Shown here piece by piece: positions 8,696-40,697 of a DNA stretch of 40,697 nucleotides. Made by a program: the position numbers and the translations under genes. The notes under the pieces are model-generated. The model ran no database searches, was not told where the DNA came from, and saw only the letters and a program-made list of their open reading frames with translations. The stretch lies in IMG/VR virus record IMGVR_UViG_3300018891_000032, positions 1-40,697 of that record, one strand, 5' to 3'. The stretch is from a virus. Position 1 is the first letter of the stretch. The number at the start of each line of letters is the position of its first letter.

Positions 8696-8898
8696 GCACG
8701 GCCATCGCCACCGAACAGTTCCCGGACGTGGCGGTAAACGCGGACGTGTAAGTCTGGGAAGACGACAGCGACTTCGCCATCGGTCAGTTGTAAGCAGGCA
8801 ATTTGTTCGAGTGTAAACGGGATTTCCCTGGAAGCTAACGTCTCGCGTAGGTAGTTCAGTTCACTCCATGGTACCGAGTAGTAAAACGACTTCTTCAT
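8683..8898 (-). CDS. Hypothetical minus-strand protein (71 aa)
   Basis: A 71-aa protein starting MKKSFYYSVPWSELNYLRET, with AAAGGAG 9-12 nt upstream on the minus strand. It opposes the early operon. No domain recognised. Together with the small membrane protein at 9007-9192 it may be expressed in the lysogen (inference). Confidence 0.55.
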   Translation of the reverse strand: MKKSFYYSVPWSELNYLRETLASREIPFTLEQIACLQLTDGEVAVVFPDLHVRVYRHVRELFGGDGRAYPW

Positions 8899-9006
8899 AT
8901 GCTCACGCTCCTTTAAGTGAACGTAACACGGAGAGTTGGGACAAAAAAAGAAGGTGGGGTCAGAGTACGATTTCAGTCTGTAGGGTGGGAACGCACGCTC
9001 AATTAT

Positions 9007-9192
9007 TTAAAATTTAAAACCCTTCCAGAAAGTGAGGGTAGCAAGAGCAAAGAAAATAAGTGAAGCAAAAAGATGAACCCATGATCTTTTGAAAATTGAA
9101 GCAACTAAAAGAGAAATTCCAATAACGAAAAACCCAACTGGGATAAGTATTAATCCGGAAACAATATACCAACCGATTTCTTCACCGAACAT
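9007..9192 (-). CDS. Small two-helix membrane protein
   Basis: A 61-aa protein with two hydrophobic segments (about 8-30 and 38-56) separated by a short FKRSW turn, so a hairpin in the cell membrane. AGGGGTGA lies 7 nt upstream of the start. The region is more AT-rich than the neighbours. Opposite orientation to the early operon suggests a moron expressed from the prophage; function unknown. Confidence 0.6.
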   Translation of the reverse strand: MFGEEIGWYIVSGLILIPVGFFVIGISLLVASIFKRSWVHLFASLIFFALATLTFWKGFKF

Positions 9193-9301
9193 TAATTAGT
9201 CACCCCTATCGTCATTTGAAAAATTATACTATTTGACCAGGGTGAACGGTACTAAAGACATAAACACAACTCGCAGTTTGTATCCACGGGAGGAGAACGG
9301 G

Positions 9302-9700
9302 ATGCAAGCAGAATGTGAAACAAAAAAGCGCGATGCATCGACTGATCTTGAGCTGTGTGAAACAGCTACGCCGGGGCCTTGGAGCTGCGTATGCGATGAA
9401 GTCGAGGTCAAAGTAAGCGGAGTAACAGCCCGGATCGTTTTCGTCAAGTCACTACGTGGCGAGGCGGACGCCCGTTTCATCGCCGAAGCCCGTCAAGCAT
9501 TGCCTTACTGGATACAACAGGCGGTCGCAGCAGAGACGGAAGTGGAACGGTTGAAGGCGGAAAACGCTCGAGTGGTTGCGCTGGCTGGTGCTGGATACGA
9601 AAAGCTGGTCATGGCGCTCCAGACGATCGCTAAGGAAACAGACGATCCGGGAGCGAGAGAATGTGCGGAAGACGCGCTGGAATCAAACGTTCGCGCCTGA
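9302..9700 (+). CDS. Ea22-like phage protein
   Basis: A 132-aa protein. The ATPGPW motif, the ADARFIAEARQALPYWIQ segment and the following coiled coil (AAETEVERLKAENARV) are the pattern of the Ead/Ea22-like family, common in prophages with no fixed function. GGGAGGAG lies 6 nt upstream of ATG 9302; a frame extension to 9233 lacks a ribosome site. Confidence 0.7.
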   Translation: MQAECETKKRDASTDLELCETATPGPWSCVCDEVEVKVSGVTARIVFVKSLRGEADARFIAEARQALPYWIQQAVAAETEVERLKAENARVVALAGAGYEKLVMALQTIAKETDDPGARECAEDALESNVRA

Positions 9701-9785
9701 CAAAAAGAAAAGCCCCTATGCAGGAGCCCGAAAAGATGTTCGCACCACCATTATAACACGGGTAAACGGACAGGGGGAACGGAAG

Positions 9786-9983
9786 ATGAGCGCTGTTGAA
9801 AAACAAGAGATTGTGGTAAAATATCCCTTAGAAAAAGGTGTCAGGGTGGTCATCATCGAGGACGGTAACATCGTGGAAAGCTGCAAGTTGGAAGCTCATC
9901 ACAAGTTCACGATCATAACCCAGGATGACAAGCTACTCGATACCGAGGAAACCAAACGGAAGCGTTACAGAAGAGCCAAATAA
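9786..9983 (+). CDS. XtrA/YqaO-like protein
   Basis: A 65-aa protein. The segment KGVRVVIIEDGNIVESCKLEAH followed by KFTIITQDDKL resembles the XtrA/YqaO family of PBSX and skin elements, found just before the late sigma-like gene in those elements, which is also the case here. CAGGGGGAAC upstream of ATG 9786. Molecular role unknown. Confidence 0.65.
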   Translation: MSAVEKQEIVVKYPLEKGVRVVIIEDGNIVESCKLEAHHKFTIITQDDKLLDTEETKRKRYRRAK

Positions 9984-33524: not shown

Positions 33525-33886
33525 AACATACTACCTCCCAAAGAAAATTTGAGACAGTGAATAAAGTTGGAAAAATTATGTAGGTCTCATGTAACAAATT
33601 ACCATAACTGGGTTGTTTTGTGAACATACTTTTTTCTAAAATTGAGAAAAATATGAATATTATCGGTTGTTGTATACAAAGTATTGCTGTATGTTATGGT
33701 AGTATTCCCCTGATTATGGCTCGGTTTAAAGAGCTCCCGGAATCAAAAACAAGTTGATCCGTGGAGTTTGATGTTCGCGTTTTGTTTGCATATACCAAAA
33801 AACAAACTCGAATCGAGTGTGAAAATGTGCTTCAAGATCAGCACAGCTTACCAAACACATATAAAAAAGCTAAGCAGATAATGGAA
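33525..33886 (+). other. Long intergenic region with a possible promoter
   Basis: No convincing gene. A plus-strand promoter-like pair TTGTTG (33667-33672), 17-bp spacer, TATGTT (33690-33695) includes the palindrome TTGTATACAA. Transcription from it would end at the terminator at 33887, giving a short RNA of about 210 nt. Confidence 0.35.
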
Positions 33887-33918
33887 GCCCTCTGGCGTTA
33901 CTCGCCGGAGGGCATTTT
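33887..33918 (+). terminator. Intrinsic terminator overlapping the AlpA-like gene end
   Basis: An 11-bp stem GCCCTCTGGCG/CGCCGGAGGGC (one G-U pair), loop TTACT, then ATTTTTG. The stop codon of the leftward AlpA-like gene lies in the loop. Confidence 0.75.
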
Positions 33919-34122
33919 TGTGTTCTTTGGCCTTCCTCTTTTTCTCGGTGTATCAATCCACGTCTGGATTTGTTCCCGAAGCCACAAGGGCCCACATGAC
34001 AACGTTTTTACCGGTTCCGGAAATTGGCCGCGGCGGATGTACTCCTGGATGTAACCCTTTGATTTTCCAGTCATCTGACAGACCTCGCCAAACCCCAGAA
34101 TTTCATCAAGCTCAACCTTCAC
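33898..34122 (-). CDS. AlpA/excisionase-like DNA-binding protein
   Basis: A 74-aa MerR-like winged HTH protein (FGEVCQMTGKSKGYIQEYIR, then RRGQFPEPVKTL and WLREQIQTWID). Such proteins act as excisionase or AlpA-type regulators of mobile elements. GTG 34122 is preceded by GAAGGGAT. It stands alone between large non-coding stretches; it may belong to the prophage end or to another mobile element. Confidence 0.75.
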   Translation of the reverse strand: MKVELDEILGFGEVCQMTGKSKGYIQEYIRRGQFPEPVKTLSCGPLWLREQIQTWIDTPRKRGRPKNTKMPSGE

Positions 34123-34293
34123 TTTAATCCCTTCTTCCCATTACTGCTGTTACCCACAAGTATGCCACAGCGACAACTAGGATAACGTTTTGCCACCACT
34201 GATCGGTGGGGGAGTATGTCGACAGAAGAGCCAGACCTAAAACTCCACGAGTAGAAACCAGATTTCGTGCGTCTAATTTTCGGTTTTTCATGC

Positions 34294-34377
34294 TATACTT
34301 AGGATGGTGGGGGGAGGTTTCCCTCCCCGGTGTTACTTGCGGCGTTTACCTTGGCGGGGGCGCCGCTTTTGCTTTTT
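34294..34377 (+). ncRNA. Candidate small RNA with promoter and terminator
   Basis: Extended -10 TGCTATACT (TATACT at 34294-34299; the -35 is weak). Transcript from about 34306 would start with a 7-bp hairpin GGGGAGG-TTTC-CCTCCCC and end with a GCGGCG/CGCCGC hairpin (34339-34366) and TTTTGCTTTTT. It is about 70 nt. Alternatively a leader with attenuator for the operon 216 bp downstream. Confidence 0.4.
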
Positions 34378-34496
34378 CCTCCGCTTTACCAGTGCGGATG
34401 TACCCAGGAAGCATATGTCGATACTAATTTCTAACTGAGATAGATGAGTGAACTTCTGATTCCTTCGTAGTTGAGTTTTGGGATGGTGGGGGGAGT

Positions 34497-34576
34497 TTGA
34501 CCAATGCCCCCAAAATTTAGTAGGATAGGAATGTTGCGATTTGGAAAAAAACCAAATTCGACCTAATTCTACTAAA
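34497..34576 (+). promoter_or_regulatory. Operon promoter with inverted-repeat operator
   Basis: -35 TTGACC (34497-34502), 18-bp spacer, -10 TAGGAT (34521-34526). An imperfect inverted repeat (TTTAGTAGGATAGG at 34516-34529, CCTAATTCTACTAAA at 34562-34576) covers the -10 and the leader. An inner ATTTGG/CCAAAT hairpin (34539-34557) sits between the arms. Operator or RNA fold; both fit. Confidence 0.45.
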
Positions 34577-34592
34577 AGGTGGCGCCGGGGAA

Positions 34593-35906
34593 ATGGTTAA
34601 CAAAAGGGGAGTTTTGCTAAGAGTATTAGATAGATTAAAAATCGATGAAGCAATTGAAGTGATTAGAGAAAAATATCCGAATTGGACTCCTGAAAAAAAG
34701 CCAAAGAAAAAGGCAGATATAAAAGAAAAGTTCTTATCACTTGACCAGATTATCAGAGAAGACGAAATTGAAGATTTCGTCCAAATGGCTGTGATGAAGA
34801 AAAACATTGGGTTCCCTGCATACACATACAAGATAACAAGTACTGATTTCCTAGATGGATTAACAGCTCAAGAAGTTGCAGAGACCTTTTCAAAAAATAA
34901 CTATACATTTAAAGACATTTACTTAATCACTACAGTCGCGAAACTTACTAATAATGTGATTGAATTAAACGTTAGATTAAAAGAATACGAAAGTTCCTGG
35001 AGAACAGGAGCGAATAATATAGAAAGCCTTTCCGCAGTCTATACATCAAACGTAATTTTAGATATTGAGCGAAAAGTCCTGACGGTGATTTCTGGAAATC
35101 ATAAAGTACACGAGGAAATTATCAGTTTCCTCCAATTGGTACTACGTTGGCCATTGCATTCATATCGTGTAAAAGAGATAACCAATCAGTTAATGGATCT
35201 GGGGAGTGTAAGCTTTAAAACCGCGGTACTTCTTGATTTGACTCATAACCGATTAAAGGAAAAGGGAATTGAATCAACATTTAAAGAGATAAAATTTGCG
35301 ATTGGAAATAAACGAAGAAAAGATGGGATACGAAATGTAGCAATTGGGGGGAGGGCGCTCCTGTCCTCTCAACTGGCTTGCGAATATATTACGATGGGAA
35401 GTGACATCGTATTTTTTAAAGTTGACATGCAAATGGACGGAGAAGAATTCTCCGCAAAGGTCTATCTCAAAGGTCAGGAATTGGATATACTGAAAATAGT
35501 TATCTTAGACACAGATAACGAAGTTGTAAAGAAAAAAGCTATGAGTATTATCCAGCAAGAATATATCGATTTATGTACTATAGGCATCCAAAATATGCCA
35601 GAAACTAAAAAATTACTTGAATCGATTAAGGAGAAATTCGTAAATCAAGATCAGTTAATTACTCGTGCGATAAAAGATAGTACATTGAAATCGATTGAAA
35701 TTATGGCAAACTTATTGGATATTTTGGATGACCAAGATGAGCGTGTTCTTGATGCATTAACTCAGTTTGTAGAATCAAATAGAACCATACTTGATTCTGT
35801 AGGGTTTGATGACATTGACGTTAACCTTGAAAAAATTAATAATTTTGTTGGACTTGAAAATGAAGCGGTACTTGATGATGAAGATTATACGGAATCCGAT
35901 GAATAA
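34593..35906 (+). CDS. Three-gene system, protein 1 (unknown, acidic C-terminus)
   Basis: A 437-aa protein not recognised from any family. The N-terminal ~50 residues are basic (PEKKPKKKADIKEK). The middle has mixed helix and strand (VLTVISGNHKVHEEI, FFKVDMQMDGEEFSAKVYL), and the end is helical and very acidic (DDEDYTESDE). AT-rich, unlike the phage and the conjugation genes. Six bases separate its stop from the next gene's TTG 35912 frame. Could be the sensor or regulator of the system; no motif proves this. Confidence 0.7.
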   Translation: MVNKRGVLLRVLDRLKIDEAIEVIREKYPNWTPEKKPKKKADIKEKFLSLDQIIREDEIEDFVQMAVMKKNIGFPAYTYKITSTDFLDGLTAQEVAETFSKNNYTFKDIYLITTVAKLTNNVIELNVRLKEYESSWRTGANNIESLSAVYTSNVILDIERKVLTVISGNHKVHEEIISFLQLVLRWPLHSYRVKEITNQLMDLGSVSFKTAVLLDLTHNRLKEKGIESTFKEIKFAIGNKRRKDGIRNVAIGGRALLSSQLACEYITMGSDIVFFKVDMQMDGEEFSAKVYLKGQELDILKIVILDTDNEVVKKKAMSIIQQEYIDLCTIGIQNMPETKKLLESIKEKFVNQDQLITRAIKDSTLKSIEIMANLLDILDDQDERVLDALTQFVESNRTILDSVGFDDIDVNLEKINNFVGLENEAVLDDEDYTESDE

Positions 35907-35929
35907 ATAATTTGAAGGTGGTGAGTTTG

Positions 35930-36568
35930 GTGCTGGGCTGGATGGAAGATAGTGTTCTCTATGAATTTAATGCTTTGGAATTCAAGGACATCACAAGCCG
36001 ACTCACCCCTTCAAAATATGAATCAATTGATTTTAGGCATCTTGAGAATGGAAATTTGGAAATCAAGTATACCTGGATTGATCCGATACGAATGAAGGAT
36101 AAAATTATTGCAAGAGACCAAAAGACCGTTACATTTTGGTTTTTTTGTAATAAATTTTTAATGTCCTGCTTTGGTAACTCAGAAAGCGCTATTTCTTACG
36201 CAATTCTTAATTTATCAAAAAAAGCAAAGGCAGAATTTAAGCGTGTTGATACATTTGATCATTGGTATCAATTCCATTATCCCGCTAATAATTGGTTTGC
36301 AACATTAACAGGTGTACATATTAAGAAGAATCCAAGTGCTTTTGATGAACGGGACATTTTAAAACTTAATATTAAGGAATTAACACGGGAGAAGCTAAAC
36401 GAAAGCTTCGATAAAAAGGAAATAACCAACTTAACTTTCAGATATGGTAATACTACATTTCATATTGACCTTGCCTCAGTAATATCATTTGCAGATACTG
36501 CATCTGAAAAAGAAATATATAGCGTGGTTAAAAATATTGTAGAAGAGTTGCGAAAGAAACATGATTAA
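35930..36568 (+). CDS. Three-gene system, protein 2 (unknown)
   Basis: A 212-aa soluble protein, unrecognised, with a WIDPIRMKDKIIARDQKTVTF beta-like stretch and conserved-looking aromatic residues (WYQFHYPANNWF). GTG 35930 has AAGGTGGTGA 8 nt upstream; TTG 35927 or ATG 35942 are alternatives. Its last 8 nt overlap the next gene, so the pair is translationally coupled. Same AT-rich composition as its neighbours. Confidence 0.68.
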   Translation: MLGWMEDSVLYEFNALEFKDITSRLTPSKYESIDFRHLENGNLEIKYTWIDPIRMKDKIIARDQKTVTFWFFCNKFLMSCFGNSESAISYAILNLSKKAKAEFKRVDTFDHWYQFHYPANNWFATLTGVHIKKNPSAFDERDILKLNIKELTREKLNESFDKKEITNLTFRYGNTTFHIDLASVISFADTASEKEIYSVVKNIVEELRKKHD

Positions 36569-37634
36569 AAGGTGGCTCGTTTTTTTACTTCTTTTAGTTC
36601 TTCCGGTTCTATTGTTATTTCAAATTAATTTTGTTAGGGTTTTCACTGACAATGAGTACGATAAATTAAAAGATCAAGTTGAGTTGATTAGTTGGCTTTT
36701 CGCTGGTGTGGTAGCCATGGTGGCTTTTTTAAGCTTGTTTATTGGTTTCTTGTATGAGAATAAGATGATCGCAGCATCAAATATTCGAAGGCAATTGTAC
36801 CATCCGTATAGCCTAAGCTTAACAGACATCAGACAGAACTTACTTTCCTATGAGAGAAATATTTCAGGAAGTCGGCTTATCAAATATATTTATTACAACT
36901 TTGTCCTGGTGTCTACATTTACTATTTTTATTTGGGGTACTGCAGTTGGATTTTATACTCAGTTCCAATTTTCTCATAAAGTAAATTTCTCGATTGAATC
37001 AGTACTAAATTTTGGGATTTATGCTTTTTATGCATTACTTTGCTTTCTTCTATTTGGCGTTACATTTTTACTTAATCAATTGAGGAATAATAAAGATCCA
37101 CTGGGTAGTGGTTATCTACCGACAACAAAGGATTTATGTAATATTGACCATTTGATTAAAGCTGGCTGTGATCTTGACGAACTGTCATTAAAGCTTGGGC
37201 CAAGCTTAGAATTTTTCAAAAACCCACCATTTGATAATCCAACTTATGAAATGAATTTTCATCTACCTATTAAACTATCTAATTTAAGATTTGTTATAAA
37301 ACTGTATGATAAGGACAGACGCCCTCTTGTTAAATGCTACGGGATAATAAACACTGTTACATTTATAGGTGAAAAAGTCCTTATCAATTTAACAAATGAT
37401 TTGTCAGAGTCTGTATATCTCGCTTTACAAGAGGAGTCCACGGGTGAGTTTAAACTTTATGATTCTGAGCTTACGGTTATATCACGAATTAATTTGAAAC
37501 TAAGTGATAGTACAAATGAGGGTTTCAGCTTTAAGGCTAGTCGCGTAATTTACCAACGGGATTCTATAGAATTAGATAAGGGATTACTTGAGGATATCAC
37601 GGATACTGGAATAAAATATTTGATAGAGAGATGA
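36561..37634 (+). CDS. Three-gene system, four-helix membrane protein
   Basis: A 357-aa protein with four transmembrane segments (about 5-22, 42-64, 110-132 and 148-171) and a soluble, beta-rich C-terminal domain of about 185 residues. Overlaps protein 2 by 8 nt. This layout, a membrane protein at the end of a small operon, fits a membrane effector in defence or a surface exclusion protein, but no family is recognised. Stop codon lies in a strong terminator. Confidence 0.72.
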   Translation: MIKRWLVFLLLLVLPVLLLFQINFVRVFTDNEYDKLKDQVELISWLFAGVVAMVAFLSLFIGFLYENKMIAASNIRRQLYHPYSLSLTDIRQNLLSYERNISGSRLIKYIYYNFVLVSTFTIFIWGTAVGFYTQFQFSHKVNFSIESVLNFGIYAFYALLCFLLFGVTFLLNQLRNNKDPLGSGYLPTTKDLCNIDHLIKAGCDLDELSLKLGPSLEFFKNPPFDNPTYEMNFHLPIKLSNLRFVIKLYDKDRRPLVKCYGIINTVTFIGEKVLINLTNDLSESVYLALQEESTGEFKLYDSELTVISRINLKLSDSTNEGFSFKASRVIYQRDSIELDKGLLEDITDTGIKYLIER

Positions 37635-37664
37635 TGACCAGTTGAACTGGTCATCATTTTATTT
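37631..37664 (+). terminator. Terminator of the three-gene operon
   Basis: A 13-bp perfect stem ATGATGACCAGTT/AACTGGTCATCAT (one-base centre) followed by TTTATTT. It closes the operon and separates it from the GC-rich DNA. Confidence 0.85.
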
Positions 37665-37707
37665 ACATGTTCTCCTCATGTTCGCATATAATACAAACAA
37701 ACGTTCC
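37662..37707 (+). promoter_or_regulatory. Promoter with LexA-like box
   Basis: Perfect -10 TATAAT (37687-37692) with a weak -35 TTTACA (37662-37667, 19-bp spacing). Directly after the -10, CAAACAAACGTTCC (37694-37707) matches 13 of 14 LexA consensus positions and would overlap the transcription start. Confidence 0.5.
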
Positions 37708-37722
37708 TGTGGCGGTGTTTGT

Positions 37723-38067
37723 CTGAATGAGCAGATCCACTCTTGGCTCTCCTTGCGGCAACTTGCCGCTTACCTGCAGCATGACAAAGAGAAGATCGAA
37801 GGTGCTCCTCTGAAGTTCCCCATCGGATACGCCAATATCATGACGACTTTCGCTGGCCAAGCTGATACCCGGGCCAAGGAAGCGTATCCGCAGCTTGGGT
37901 GCGGCGGCACCTCGATCCTAGGCTTCGTTCTGGACCGAGGAGAGCACTTCGTCATGTGGAAGCAGCGAGGGGAGACGCATCTGTTCCGGATCAACGACAC
38001 CAAACTGCGGGCAGAAGCACAAAAAATTCCTGATGGTTTGGTGGCTGAACATGAAAAACAGGTATAA
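37723..38067 (+). CDS. Small unknown protein behind a LexA-like box
   Basis: A frame of about 114 codons with strong host-like codon use (GC-rich third positions), reading NEQIHSWLSLRQLAAYLQHD... and ending VAEHEKQV. No ATG starts it: the in-frame CTG 37723 has a GGCGGTG weak ribosome site 5 nt upstream, or the gene is a 5'-truncated remnant cut by insertion of the AT-rich island. No family recognised. SOS control is inferred from the upstream box. Confidence 0.5.
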   Translation: MNEQIHSWLSLRQLAAYLQHDKEKIEGAPLKFPIGYANIMTTFAGQADTRAKEAYPQLGCGGTSILGFVLDRGEHFVMWKQRGETHLFRINDTKLRAEAQKIPDGLVAEHEKQV

Positions 38068-38069
38068 TA

Positions 38070-38157
38070 TCCGCCCGCCTCGCATACGCTCTAGCGAAGG
38101 CGAGCGTTAGGGGATACTACGGCCTCCGTCCCGAAAGGGTTGGAGGCCTTGTTTTTA
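38070..38157 (+). ncRNA. Candidate structured RNA
   Basis: TATAAT (38063-38068) with TTGGTG at 19 bp upstream could start a short RNA. It would fold into nested stems CGCCT/AGGCG (38076-38102) around CGCT/AGCG, then end in the terminator hairpin at 38121-38148 with its T-run. The weak promoter spacing makes this tentative. Confidence 0.3.
38121..38157 (+). terminator. Terminator between convergent genes
   Basis: GGCCTCC/GGAGGCC stem with an inner CCC-GAAA-GGG, followed by TTGTTTTT. It stands between the rightward small gene and the leftward ATPase gene. Confidence 0.82.
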
Positions 38158-40245
38158 TGCTGCATTGCGCGGTGTGGTGTTGCTCTGCGCTGTGTTGTGT
38201 TGCGCACTCGGAGGTGCCGTCATGTGAGCCATGAAAACGGTATGCTGCTCGTCACCTACCCGAAGCACGTTCAGTGCGTGGAAGCGTGGCATCTTGACAT
38301 AGTCCTCGACTGTATATGGTGCCAACTCCTCGGCAAGCTCCCGGAATGTTTTCTTGCTGGCACGGTAGATGTGGTAGTGGGGGCCTGCGCTACGGATGAT
38401 CTCGGCCAGATCGCTCGGAATCTGCTCCCAAGAGTGAAACATCCAAACGTAACCGACACGCCACTTACGGGACTCCACCGCAGCGGACTTCCAGGCGCGT
38501 GCCGAACGGAGGAACTGGTGCGGCTCGTCGTAGATCACAAAGAAGGGGAACTGTTTGGCCTCTTCGCGCAGCGTCATGGCCAAATCAATCTTCACGGACA
38601 GCAGGTTTACGATCAGATCAACTCCCTCGGGGCCGAGAGCAGTCTTCGGCACGTCGATGATGACAGCGTGCGGCTCCGACATGAGCGCGACCATGTCCAG
38701 CGAGTTGTCGGAATCGTAGCACTCCGCCAAGAACTCGTCGCCAAGGATGGTATCCAACCGGTTGAGGATGGGGGCCAGCACCTGCGCGCGCCGTCCGTCG
38801 GTCATCCGCCCGAAGTCCTCCAGCGTGGTCCGGTGGATACCCGGCGTCATTCCGGCCACCAGCTCCTCCCGGTAGTTTTCGTCCTCGAAGATGCGGAGCA
38901 CTTCGGACAGCCGGGGGGTCCGCATGGCCATGATTGCCGCACGTAAGAACCGGGCCGTCTGCGCGCCGGCCTCGTCGGTGGCGGTGTTGAAGAAGCTGAT
39001 CACACTGTTAGCCAACCGGTTCTGAGCCCGCGGCGAATACCTCACCTCGCAAAAGTCCAAGGCAAACGGTACGGTGCCATCAATCCGAATCCTCTTTACC
39101 TTATCCGGAGGTAGCACAGCCTCAACCTCGTTTCCAATCTCCCCTTTGGCCGGGTCGATGCTGAGGGCGCCGAACCCGTTCTTGACCGCCTCCACGATCA
39201 GGTTGGCACCGTATCCCCGCGTCTTCCCCGATCCCATGCCGCCGATGACCACCCGGGGCAAGCACAGCTCGTCGTGGTTGTCGGTTGGCATGTACACTTC
39301 ATACTCTCCGTCCTTTTGTTCAACTGTACCCAGTTTCATCCCGCCCCGTCGTACTTCCGCCGGTGCCTTTGATTCCCGCTGCGACTTGGCGGCCACTCCC
39401 ATGTACTCTTCCTGCAGTGACCTGGGCGGCAACTGGATCAGTCGGCCGATCTCCGCTGGGGTGATAATGTCGCGGCGCGAGGATAAAAAGGGGACGGCGA
39501 TCCGCCGGGCGCGCGCATCGCGCAGAAAACGTTTCAGCCGCCACCCGGGCACTCGGCGGGCATCCAGCTGGTTGTCTCCGTTCAGGCTGGCTAGGGCAGC
39601 GCATAAGCCCCGACCAAGGCGCTGCCGTCGGCGCGGGTCGGCCGAGCGGACGAGCACCCGGATGGCAAAGTCAAAGCCCTGGTCGGCCAGTTTCTGCTCG
39701 GTCGCCTCGGACAAGTGACCGAACTTCCGCCAGCCTCTCGGTTTGTACCCGCGATCGAACTCCCGCCGGTCCGTCGCCGCATCTTTCCACCAGTCCGGCT
39801 CGGCCGCCTGAAACCCAAACTGCACGACGGCATAATCTTCTTCGCGGAACTGCCGGGATAGTTCCAGCAGTTGGGGGAGGGGGGCCAACTTGCGCCGATC
39901 CGTGGAGAGTGAGAGGAAATGGGGAAACCGTAGGCGAAGTTGCCAACCATCCGTGTCAGGGCCAAACGGGGCCAGATGATCATCCTCTGCCGGCTCTAGC
40001 ACGGCGGTCGGCCATGTCGCCTCCACCTGTTGCTGCGCCAGCTCAGCGGTGTGATCCGGGGTAGCCATCCGGATCTCGTACTGGTCCCGGGCTATGATGG
40101 TCTCCCAGAAAATGCGCTCCCGTTCCGGCCAGCGCCACCTTCTGGCAGCCGCAGCTATAAGATCCACGATCTCCTGATACCCGTCAGCCAGCGGTGCCGC
40201 GAAATACTCCACATCTTCGTTGGTCGTGGAGAGGCGCGGGACCAC
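38155..40245 (-). CDS. Conjugation-type P-loop ATPase (VirB4/TraD/TraG-like)
   Basis: A 696-aa ATPase from GTG 40245. Walker A GGMGSGKT at about 335-342 and Walker B FFVIYDEPHQF at about 568-578. The SIDPAKGEIGNEVE segment and WMFHSWEQIPSDL sensor-like region fit a coupling or secretion ATPase of a Gram-positive conjugation system. The frame is open further upstream to 40593 but that part overlaps the next gene and lacks good sequence, so the shorter start is preferred. GC-rich, unlike the AT-rich island. It needs an upstream membrane partner, and the next gene may be one. Confidence 0.75.
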   Translation of the reverse strand: MVPRLSTTNEDVEYFAAPLADGYQEIVDLIAAAARRWRWPERERIFWETIIARDQYEIRMATPDHTAELAQQQVEATWPTAVLEPAEDDHLAPFGPDTDGWQLRLRFPHFLSLSTDRRKLAPLPQLLELSRQFREEDYAVVQFGFQAAEPDWWKDAATDRREFDRGYKPRGWRKFGHLSEATEQKLADQGFDFAIRVLVRSADPRRRQRLGRGLCAALASLNGDNQLDARRVPGWRLKRFLRDARARRIAVPFLSSRRDIITPAEIGRLIQLPPRSLQEEYMGVAAKSQRESKAPAEVRRGGMKLGTVEQKDGEYEVYMPTDNHDELCLPRVVIGGMGSGKTRGYGANLIVEAVKNGFGALSIDPAKGEIGNEVEAVLPPDKVKRIRIDGTVPFALDFCEVRYSPRAQNRLANSVISFFNTATDEAGAQTARFLRAAIMAMRTPRLSEVLRIFEDENYREELVAGMTPGIHRTTLEDFGRMTDGRRAQVLAPILNRLDTILGDEFLAECYDSDNSLDMVALMSEPHAVIIDVPKTALGPEGVDLIVNLLSVKIDLAMTLREEAKQFPFFVIYDEPHQFLRSARAWKSAAVESRKWRVGYVWMFHSWEQIPSDLAEIIRSAGPHYHIYRASKKTFRELAEELAPYTVEDYVKMPRFHALNVLRVGDEQHTVFMAHMTAPPSAQHNTAQSNTTPRNAA

Positions 40246-40262
40246 TCTGACAACGGACCAAC

Positions 40263-40697
40263 CTACTTTTGTAGAAACGTCGACTGTATCCCTGCTTGGA
40301 TCGCGTCGTTCAACATCGCCCCCAGGAAGTACAGGAGCAGCACCATCGATGGTACCAGTGCCGTCCCCAGTATTATGCCGCCAGCCGTCATGAGTGTTAT
40401 CCTGCCGAACCGACGTTGGAAGATAACCATCACGATCCCGGCAAGAAGCCCGAGCGTCCCGATTACAAGCGCCAGACCTTGGAGTGTCCCGAACATCGGG
40501 CTGAAACTGCCCCACATCTTTAGAACGGATGCCATGCTCCCGTTGTCCGCCGCCGCTGGCGCTGCGGTCATCAAGCTGCCCGCGACCGTCCATAGCGTGA
40601 TCGCGAGCTGCGATAACTTTGGGTTTGGTTTCACTACCACCACCCGTTCACATCCGGCCGCCGGTACTAAAGGCACGCCATTGATACGCACGATCAT
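40263..40697 (-). CDS. Small membrane protein of the conjugation cluster (TrbC/VirB2-like)
   Basis: At least 144 aa; the ATG at the window edge may be the start, or the gene may begin beyond it. It has a signal-like segment (about 30-50, ending near APAAAD) and two long hydrophobic helices (about 70-93 and 98-125). This fits a pilin/TrbC-VirB2-like or other conjugation membrane protein. It lies 17 bp upstream of the ATPase gene in the same direction. Confidence 0.55.
   Translation of the reverse strand: MIVRINGVPLVPAAGCERVVVVKPNPKLSQLAITLWTVAGSLMTAAPAAADNGSMASVLKMWGSFSPMFGTLQGLALVIGTLGLLAGIVMVIFQRRFGRITLMTAGGIILGTALVPSMVLLLYFLGAMLNDAIQAGIQSTFLQK

Follow-up and report, generated by a model that had tools for sequence, protein, structure and literature searches.

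What does the compact, AT-rich gene cassette near the right end of the prophage in IMG/VR virus record IMGVR_UViG_3300018891_000032 do? The window analyzed here is the whole of this record, a prophage of 40,697 bases, and the cassette consists of three tightly packed forward genes encoding proteins A (437 aa), B (~212 aa) and C (357 aa, with four membrane helices). An earlier note had read it as a defence or superinfection-exclusion cassette with a membrane effector. The conserved gene unit, the location among prophage cargo, some defence neighbours and the four-helix partner agree with this claim, of which we infer the role itself. We propose here that A-B-C probably excludes phages by abortive infection in the manner of RexAB, with B as an additional soluble subunit. 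RexAB was the earliest abortive-infection system to be linked to anti-phage defence, and the RexA-RexB pair of phage lambda (Pfam PF15969/PF15968) is responsible for T4rII exclusion. We favour this reading because of the predicted fold of A, the membrane topology of C, two-gene relatives that follow the classical RexA-RexB plan, the conserved gene order and the genomic contexts. The operon, its conservation as a unit, the cargo and defence contexts, the predicted fold of A and the predicted topology of C were all obtained by computation.

The three genes form a conserved unit

The three open reading frames (ORFs) are located as first described (B there as 35912-36568; Table 1). For B, a TTG start at 35912 had been assumed, in place of which a GTG at 35930, giving 212 residues, is probable, because several homologues begin with an MLxW-like sequence and a Shine-Dalgarno-like AAGGTGGTGA lies just upstream. 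With this start, A and B are separated by 23 nt, and B and C overlap by 8 nt. In shuffled DNA of the same composition, the longest stop-free run had a mean of 71 and a maximum of 121 codons (200 shuffles). Comparison with the related locus L014 gave differences at the first, second and third codon positions of 87/57/238 for A, 68/51/122 for B and 129/74/223 for C, concentrated at third positions in all three genes; the synonymous divergence dS is saturated in this comparison, so that no dN/dS ratio is given. A, B and C are real coding sequences. They are also AT-rich, as had been claimed: the GC content of the operon, 0.337, is below that of every 3,042-nt segment scanned in 100-nt steps (minimum 0.338, start 34601; mean 0.502, sd 0.052).

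Single-protein searches returned no match in phages (A and C), plasmids (A, B and C), viral contigs (A and C) or genome contigs (A). Further searches with A matched 4 of the 39 genomes in the order of G006, the genome holding a Brevibacillus thermoruber contig (two strong and two marginal matches, the latter in G026 and G031 at E 0.006-0.008 and set aside), 4 of 398 genomes sampled from the same class (two of which had already been matched in the 39-genome order), 1 of 261 and 1 of 15 genomes in two further orders (both already known), and 7 of 392 genomes in an order taken to be Paenibacillales. Across the phylum, a 13-row model of A matched 0 of 398 sampled genomes, and A matched 0 of 7 in a first small set. 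Among viral contigs, A matched two loci, one of which encodes A and B proteins identical to those of genome G780. With duplicates left uncounted (L027 and L028, on the L021 and L022 contigs, and L029, from genome G780 with A and B proteins as in L021), there are 11 distinct triads, namely the window, L014, L015, L021, L022, L023, L024, L037, L038, L039 and L040; A thus has 10 triad homologues and two distant ones, L041 and L042.

All 11 triads keep A, B and C in this order on one strand, as a check proposed in the earlier note had asked, with A-B gaps of 12-61 nt and B-C overlaps in nine, the other two having B and C 4-5 nt apart. Pairwise identities are 28-70% for A, 17-53% for B and 18-55% for C. 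The search with C in the same 392-genome order yielded five strong matches, each belonging to one of the five triads there; a further, marginal match in G858 (E 9.6e-4) was set aside, and the search with B in the 39-genome order matched only the two triads. Single homologues in housekeeping contexts, the outcome that would have spoken against a cassette, were therefore not seen: apart from the marginal match, C occurs only with A and B in the 392 genomes, and B only with A and C in the 39. L037, L038 and L040 do adjoin housekeeping genes, but as complete triads. A-B-C is a conserved unit.

The remaining two of the seven matches in the 392 genomes, L041 and L042, have an A-like gene followed 8-10 nt later by a gene for a protein of 186-189 aa with four transmembrane (TM) segments. 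Their A-like proteins are related to A by profile-profile comparison (E 6.6e-10, with 0 of 40 shuffles as good), and neither protein of the pair has a sequence-model match above cut-off. These two loci represent the classical RexA-RexB plan.

Protein A is predicted to share the fold of RdgC

The AlphaFold model of A, built from 13 sequences, has a pLDDT of 80.7. A Foldseek search against the PDB revealed E. coli RdgC as its best match (E 5.7e-8), and VIA comparison gave RdgC at Z 12.3 (221 residues, model residues 70-331) and 11.7, followed by Iml3 at 8.3. Further matches were CENP-L at ~7.5, CENP-N at 6.5 and lambda RexA (8twq) at 5.0, where a Z under 8 may mean a common arrangement only. The entry that we take to be CENP-L was named from its chain letter, as were some other entries. 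Iml3/CENP-L (Z ~7-8) and CENP-N/Chl4 (~5.5-7) share the two-half fold of A, but are eukaryotic proteins of other function, related by fold only. A search of a viral structure library also placed phage proteins named RdgC or recombination-associated among the best matches of A. Altogether, A is predicted from its model to have the RdgC ring-protein fold over residues 70-331 only; the RdgC part of this assignment is strong, and the RexA part is weak. Compared to RdgC, A adds an N-terminal helical part and a C-terminal helical region with an acidic tail, both outside the core. The C-terminal region is absent from L024, L041 and L042. In L024, the A protein (8726-9787) ends ~85 residues early, and the B and C genes are intact.

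The lambda RexA paper (PMC11077077) lists RdgC (Z 4.4), IML3, CHL4, an epimerase and Cas2 as structural relatives of RexA, and describes a closed crystal form together with a modelled open form. The weak whole-chain match of RexA to the open model of A may be due to this closed crystal form.

That none of the three proteins belongs to a known family, as the earlier note had it, holds for sequence models and fails for structure, given the predicted RdgC fold of A, which is common to lambda RexA. Pfam, PADLOC, NCBIfam and PHROG gave no match above the curated cut-off for A, B or C, and no RdgC model appeared among the Pfam, NCBIfam or PHROG matches of the A protein of the window. The scans of a homologue subset (Pfam and PHROGs, with PADLOC on the two-gene pairs only) also gave no match above cut-off, and PDB sequence searches with A, B and C returned nothing useful. 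Two sub-threshold hits of A in the window were dropped: SAM_2 (19.3 versus 20.5 bits), and the CTD8 domain of ABC-3C systems (18.3 bits versus a cut-off of 27.6, with 20.3 bits in a further scan), the operon having no ABC ATPase. Pfam scans of seven further A or A-like proteins showed neither domain.

Protein C is predicted to combine four membrane helices with a β-sandwich domain

Hydropathy and an AlphaFold model (pLDDT 85.5, pTM 0.76) both confirmed that C has four membrane helices and a soluble C-terminal domain, the latter predicted to be a β-sandwich. The central loop between TM2 and TM3 has 49 residues, with 7 Lys and Arg versus 3 Asp and Glu. Of the 11 C homologues, 10 show four TM segments and a central loop richer in Lys and Arg than either outer loop; for L023, three TM segments were called. 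Lambda RexB, scored in the same way, also shows four TM segments and a basic central loop. Sbash gp31 loses its defence activity upon two substitutions in the central cytoplasmic region (PMC6426596). Fold matches of C were limited to helical look-alikes (STAT coiled coils, Z ~8) and generic β-sandwiches, and were not used. Profile comparison of C with the small TM protein of the two-gene type gave E 0.023 over 28 columns, with 0 of 40 shuffles as good, which is suggestive only of a relationship between the two at the sequence level. For the same small TM protein against lambda RexB, 4 of 40 shuffles were as good.

Comparison with RexAB-like systems

Lambda RexA-RexB is likewise prophage-borne, with a soluble protein that has RdgC-type relatives encoded directly upstream of a four-TM protein. 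A-B-C differs in having three genes, in the extra helical parts at both ends of A and in the absence of a sequence-model match; in addition, C has 357 residues and a β-sandwich, compared to 144 residues for RexB. The four-TM partner downstream of the putative sensor is present in A-B-C, with B between the two genes. RexAB-type systems have a two-gene plan, compared to three genes in all 11 triads, and two genes are seen only in L041 and L042.

The actinophage pairs CarolAnn gp44/gp43 (370/178 aa; PMC6426606) and Sbash gp30/gp31 consist of a soluble protein of 370-372 aa and a four-TM protein of 165-178 aa, as in L041 and L042. They have no third gene, and no convincing sequence similarity to the A-B-C proteins. 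RexABpp of P. putida prophage P1, reported in 2026, is also prophage-borne and pairs a RexA-fold DNA-binding protein with a four-TM, growth-stopping effector, but it has two genes and a Gram-negative host; the likeness is drawn from its published description. No three-gene Rex-like system was found described in the literature searched. To judge from the predicted fold, the order of the genes and the membrane topology, what appears to be new in A-B-C is a RexAB-like system that has a third component and a larger effector and lies outside the Pfam RexA and RexB families.

Genomic contexts of the cassette

The left end of the window carries an IrrE-like peptidase and a repressor (phage repressor, 574-1098), the middle carries terminase and baseplate genes, and an N-acetylmuramoyl-L-alanine amidase is located at 31.1-32.2 kb. 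The right end is a conjugation-type region, in which a large ORF (38155-40593), a conjugation ATPase by eye that had no Pfam match at E 0.01, is followed by a TrbC/VirB2-like protein with a Pfam score below its cut-off. The operon lies between the amidase/AlpA-like region and this conjugation-type region, so that its location at a border was correctly described.

Four sibling viral contigs, L052-L055, share the right flank with the window at 87-94% nucleotide identity (4/4). On the left, L054 and L055 match the window at 98% over 33886-34406, the match returning from 37687 and 38094, respectively; in L052 and L053, the left-side sharing extends only to ~32030, at the amidase, and the match returns at 37740 and 38055. 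Where the window has A-B-C, each contig carries other AT-rich genes: L052 encodes an NYN-domain protein, and L053, L054 and L055 encode DUF3800 proteins, alongside smaller ORFs. Because the contigs share these flanks but hold other AT-rich genes, the prophage/mobile-element border is a cargo region, with A-B-C as one tenant among several.

For the other loci, context genes without a database match were named by eye, in a neighbourhood reading that covered L038 except its end and L039 except its start, and PADLOC was run on the neighbours in three of the 11 loci (L023, L024 and L039), picked for their defence-like look. A phage or prophage houses five of the 11 triads: that of the window; L014 and L021, which adjoin lysis genes; L022, among phage early genes; and L015, with htrA-side genes of the chromosome on one side and a large serine recombinase on the other. 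In L023, all four scanned neighbours match PADLOC (NERD-helicase, HNH, GmrSD/HEC-05 and a type I restriction fragment), as do two of six in L024 (PDC-M36A and a type IV-like HNH protein), and L039 is followed by the BREX genes brxA, brxB and brxC. Thus, the expectation that homologues lie near other defence genes held for these three loci, which have restriction-type or BREX neighbours. The others follow a tmRNA gene (L037), a 23S rRNA methyltransferase gene (L038) and groEL (L040).

The two-gene locus L041 follows groEL, like the triad L040, and L042 is in a prophage beside lysis genes, like the triad L021, indicating that the same kind of site takes either form.

Evidence against the RexAB-like reading and alternative explanations

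Several observations weigh against a RexAB-like system. The main weakness is that the strong structural match of A is RdgC and not RexA, and that the profiles gave no convincing link. The direct RexA match is weak (Z 5.0, rmsd 14.6 Å over 172 residues), and RexA is absent among the best 50 Foldseek matches listed for A. We know of no membrane partner for the recombination protein RdgC. The A core has about zero net charge and gives no bulk sign of DNA binding; the net charge of known RexA-like proteins is only -7 to +3. C exceeds all RexB proteins compared here in length and is over twice as long as lambda RexB; its β-sandwich domain has no clear relative. Of the 10 homologues with four TM segments, only 7 have a central loop of positive net charge, that of L040 being neutral and those of L022 and L039 negative. 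Moreover, the cassette is not adjacent to the phage repressor, unlike those of lambda and CarolAnn. The Rex-like genes of Sbash are also displaced from the repressor (PMC6426596). Lastly, three of the 11 triads (L037, L038 and L040) have no phage, mobile or defence neighbour by eye.

In sequence comparisons, the scanned A and C proteins had no match to Pfam PF15969/PF15968. The profile of A against lambda RexA gave a best E of 0.095, with 5 of 40 shuffles as good, and against the CarolAnn gp44 group an E of 0.28, with 1 of 40 as good; C against the lambda RexB and CarolAnn gp43 profiles gave nothing. Among the Pfam controls, lambda RexA and RexB do match, in contrast to CarolAnn gp44, Sbash gp30, Sejanus gp46 and CarolAnn gp43, and a control profile comparison of lambda RexA with CarolAnn gp44 gave no signal (12 of 40 shuffles as good). 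The profile and Pfam negatives therefore decide little, because the control RexA-gp44 comparison and the Pfam RexA model on CarolAnn gp44 and Sbash gp30 fail as well.

The preference of A for RdgC over RexA would also fit an anti-phage system with a membrane effector but a logic other than that of RexAB, in which A reads or recruits DNA like RdgC, and both the trigger and the action of C are different, for example nucleotide or lipid signalling via the β-sandwich. The extra domain of C, the lack of a counterpart of B in the lambda, CarolAnn or Sbash pairs, and the defence-type neighbours in three loci are consistent with such a system. The plain plan of an A-like and a four-TM protein in L041 and L042, by contrast, points to RexA-RexB logic as the core, and we regard this explanation as unlikely.

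The RdgC match might alternatively mean that the cassette is a lysogenic-conversion module, with A as an RdgC-like recombination or SOS modulator and C acting in host or prophage physiology, and no phage exclusion; the three triads beside housekeeping genes would fit this. The occurrence of the cassette is rare and patchy (7/392, 4/398 and 0/398 sampled genomes), its cargo region has DUF3800 and NYN tenants, and BREX or restriction-type neighbours are found elsewhere, all of which make this alternative quite improbable.

A toxin-antitoxin-like arrangement, in which C is a constitutive membrane toxin restrained by B (or A) and released by infection, or in which the membrane partner restrains a soluble toxin as in the role reversal described for the Butters type (PMC12894663), could account for the B-C gene overlap in nine of the 11 triads, but seems very improbable given that the soluble genes come first and the membrane protein last, and that no toxin-antitoxin family was matched.

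Proposed mechanism

In the model described for Rex-like systems, RexA senses the phage and activates the membrane protein RexB, upon which the cell stops (PMC12894663); the CarolAnn and Sbash papers propose a like model (PMC6426606, PMC6426596), and RexABpp of P. putida causes RexA-triggered, RexB-dependent growth arrest and membrane damage (PMC12894663). For a RexAB-like A-B-C, A would be the sensor, a protein of the RdgC/RexA fold that should dimerise into a ring or clamp around DNA, and would detect the infecting phage either by one of its proteins or by DNA intermediates of its replication or recombination. C would be the effector, with the central loop and the added β-sandwich facing the cytoplasm to receive the signal. 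Once activated, C would open or damage the membrane, so that growth stops before new phage is made. B, which is co-encoded in every triad found, would most likely belong to the sensor complex of A or couple A to C. We infer DNA binding, the trigger, the contacts among A, B and C, the membrane damage and phage exclusion.

B has invariant W-x-D and S-E motifs among 11 sequences. Viewed by eye, its strands and helices track those of the A core one for one. A rather doubtful conjecture is that B is a second, minimal subunit of the RdgC/RexA fold, that it pairs with A in a heterodimeric DNA clamp gating C, and that the asymmetry of the clamp sets what is sensed. Neither sequence profiles (6 of 40 shuffles as good) nor a crude comparison of secondary structure (as good in 19 of 150 shuffles) supported a common ancestry of B and the A core. 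In form, the Chl4/CENP-N and Iml3/CENP-L pair would be the kinetochore counterpart of the conjectured clamp: Chl4/CENP-N is longer with an N-terminal helical domain, and is likened to A, and Iml3/CENP-L, of ~220-300 residues with the core only, is likened to B.

The 2026 paper counted only five RexAB-like systems (PMC12894663). If the RexAB-like reading of A-B-C is true, a diverged three-component family in Bacilli, together with two-gene relatives at like sites, would widen this class. The large soluble domain of C may ease the study of sensor-effector coupling, and the gene for an RdgC-fold protein just upstream of a gene for a four-TM protein could serve as a search rule for more systems.

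Expression signals and other features

Table 1. Features of the A-B-C cassette, its cargo region and related loci (positions are those of the window unless a locus is named)
Feature	Position	Strand	Basis or remark
Gene A, 437 aa, RdgC/RexA-fold, putative infection sensor / DNA-binding subunit	34593..35906	+	ORF and AlphaFold
RdgC-like two-half core of A, ~residues 70-331	34800..35585	+	VIA alignment to 2owl_A
Helical C-terminal region and acidic tail of A, residues 332-437	35586..35903	+	net charge -17
Gene B, 212 aa from GTG, soluble subunit	35930..36568	+	ORF and homologue starts
Gene C, 357 aa, four-helix membrane protein with β-sandwich domain, putative effector	36561..37634	+	AlphaFold, hydropathy
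Membrane part of C, residues 2-175	36564..37085	+	TM ~7-25, 46-64, 114-132, 153-171
Soluble β-sandwich domain of C, ~residues 205-357	37173..37631	+	AlphaFold model
Variable insert (cassette) in an otherwise shared prophage end	34407..37686	.	bounds from L054 comparison
Long imperfect hairpin between putative promoter and gene A	34516..34576	+	folding
Intrinsic terminator hairpin over the C stop codon	37630..37658	+	13-bp, -18.7 kcal/mol, then TTTATTT
Two-gene A-like and four-TM cassettes in Bacilli	L041 8550-10267; L042 8354-10028
AT-rich NYN-domain cargo gene	L052 10908-11867		candidate phage-defence gene
AT-rich DUF3800 cargo genes	L053 11342-12145; L054 10980-11792; L055 10870-11622		candidate phage-defence genes

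One promoter and one terminator had been assigned to the operon. The terminator is borne out by the hairpin over the C stop codon (Table 1), which a consensus terminator scanner did not list. The promoter is within chance: the best promoter-like site upstream (34497-34526) scores 9/12, and 15 such sites were found versus 11.7 expected; a single promoter for A-B-C is plausible, though no better than chance. The hairpin upstream of A (-19.3 kcal/mol over the 75-nt stretch folded; arms TTTAGTAG...CTACTAAA) is a possible operator or attenuator. Folding of 13 upstream regions showed no RNA hairpin that, by eye, was shared among them.

The conjugation-type ATPase ORF is common to the ends of the window prophage (37687-40697) and of L052-L055. 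This common end suggests either that a single site of a conjugative element is occupied by phages time and again, or that the whole is a phage-conjugation composite.

By eye, the sites downstream of groEL (L040 and L041) and of an rlmD-like gene (L038 and L039) each carry a cassette of this family in two different genomes, and these groEL and rRNA methyltransferase sites look like recurrent insertion sites. Finally, a similar-looking membrane-anchored protein of ~240-255 aa is encoded near the cassette slot in L014 (3214-3930), L021 (7046-7795) and L042 (5188-5952). The L042 protein, the only one scanned, has Mrr-type nuclease and topoisomerase zinc-ribbon domains, and this protein is possibly another defence gene product.

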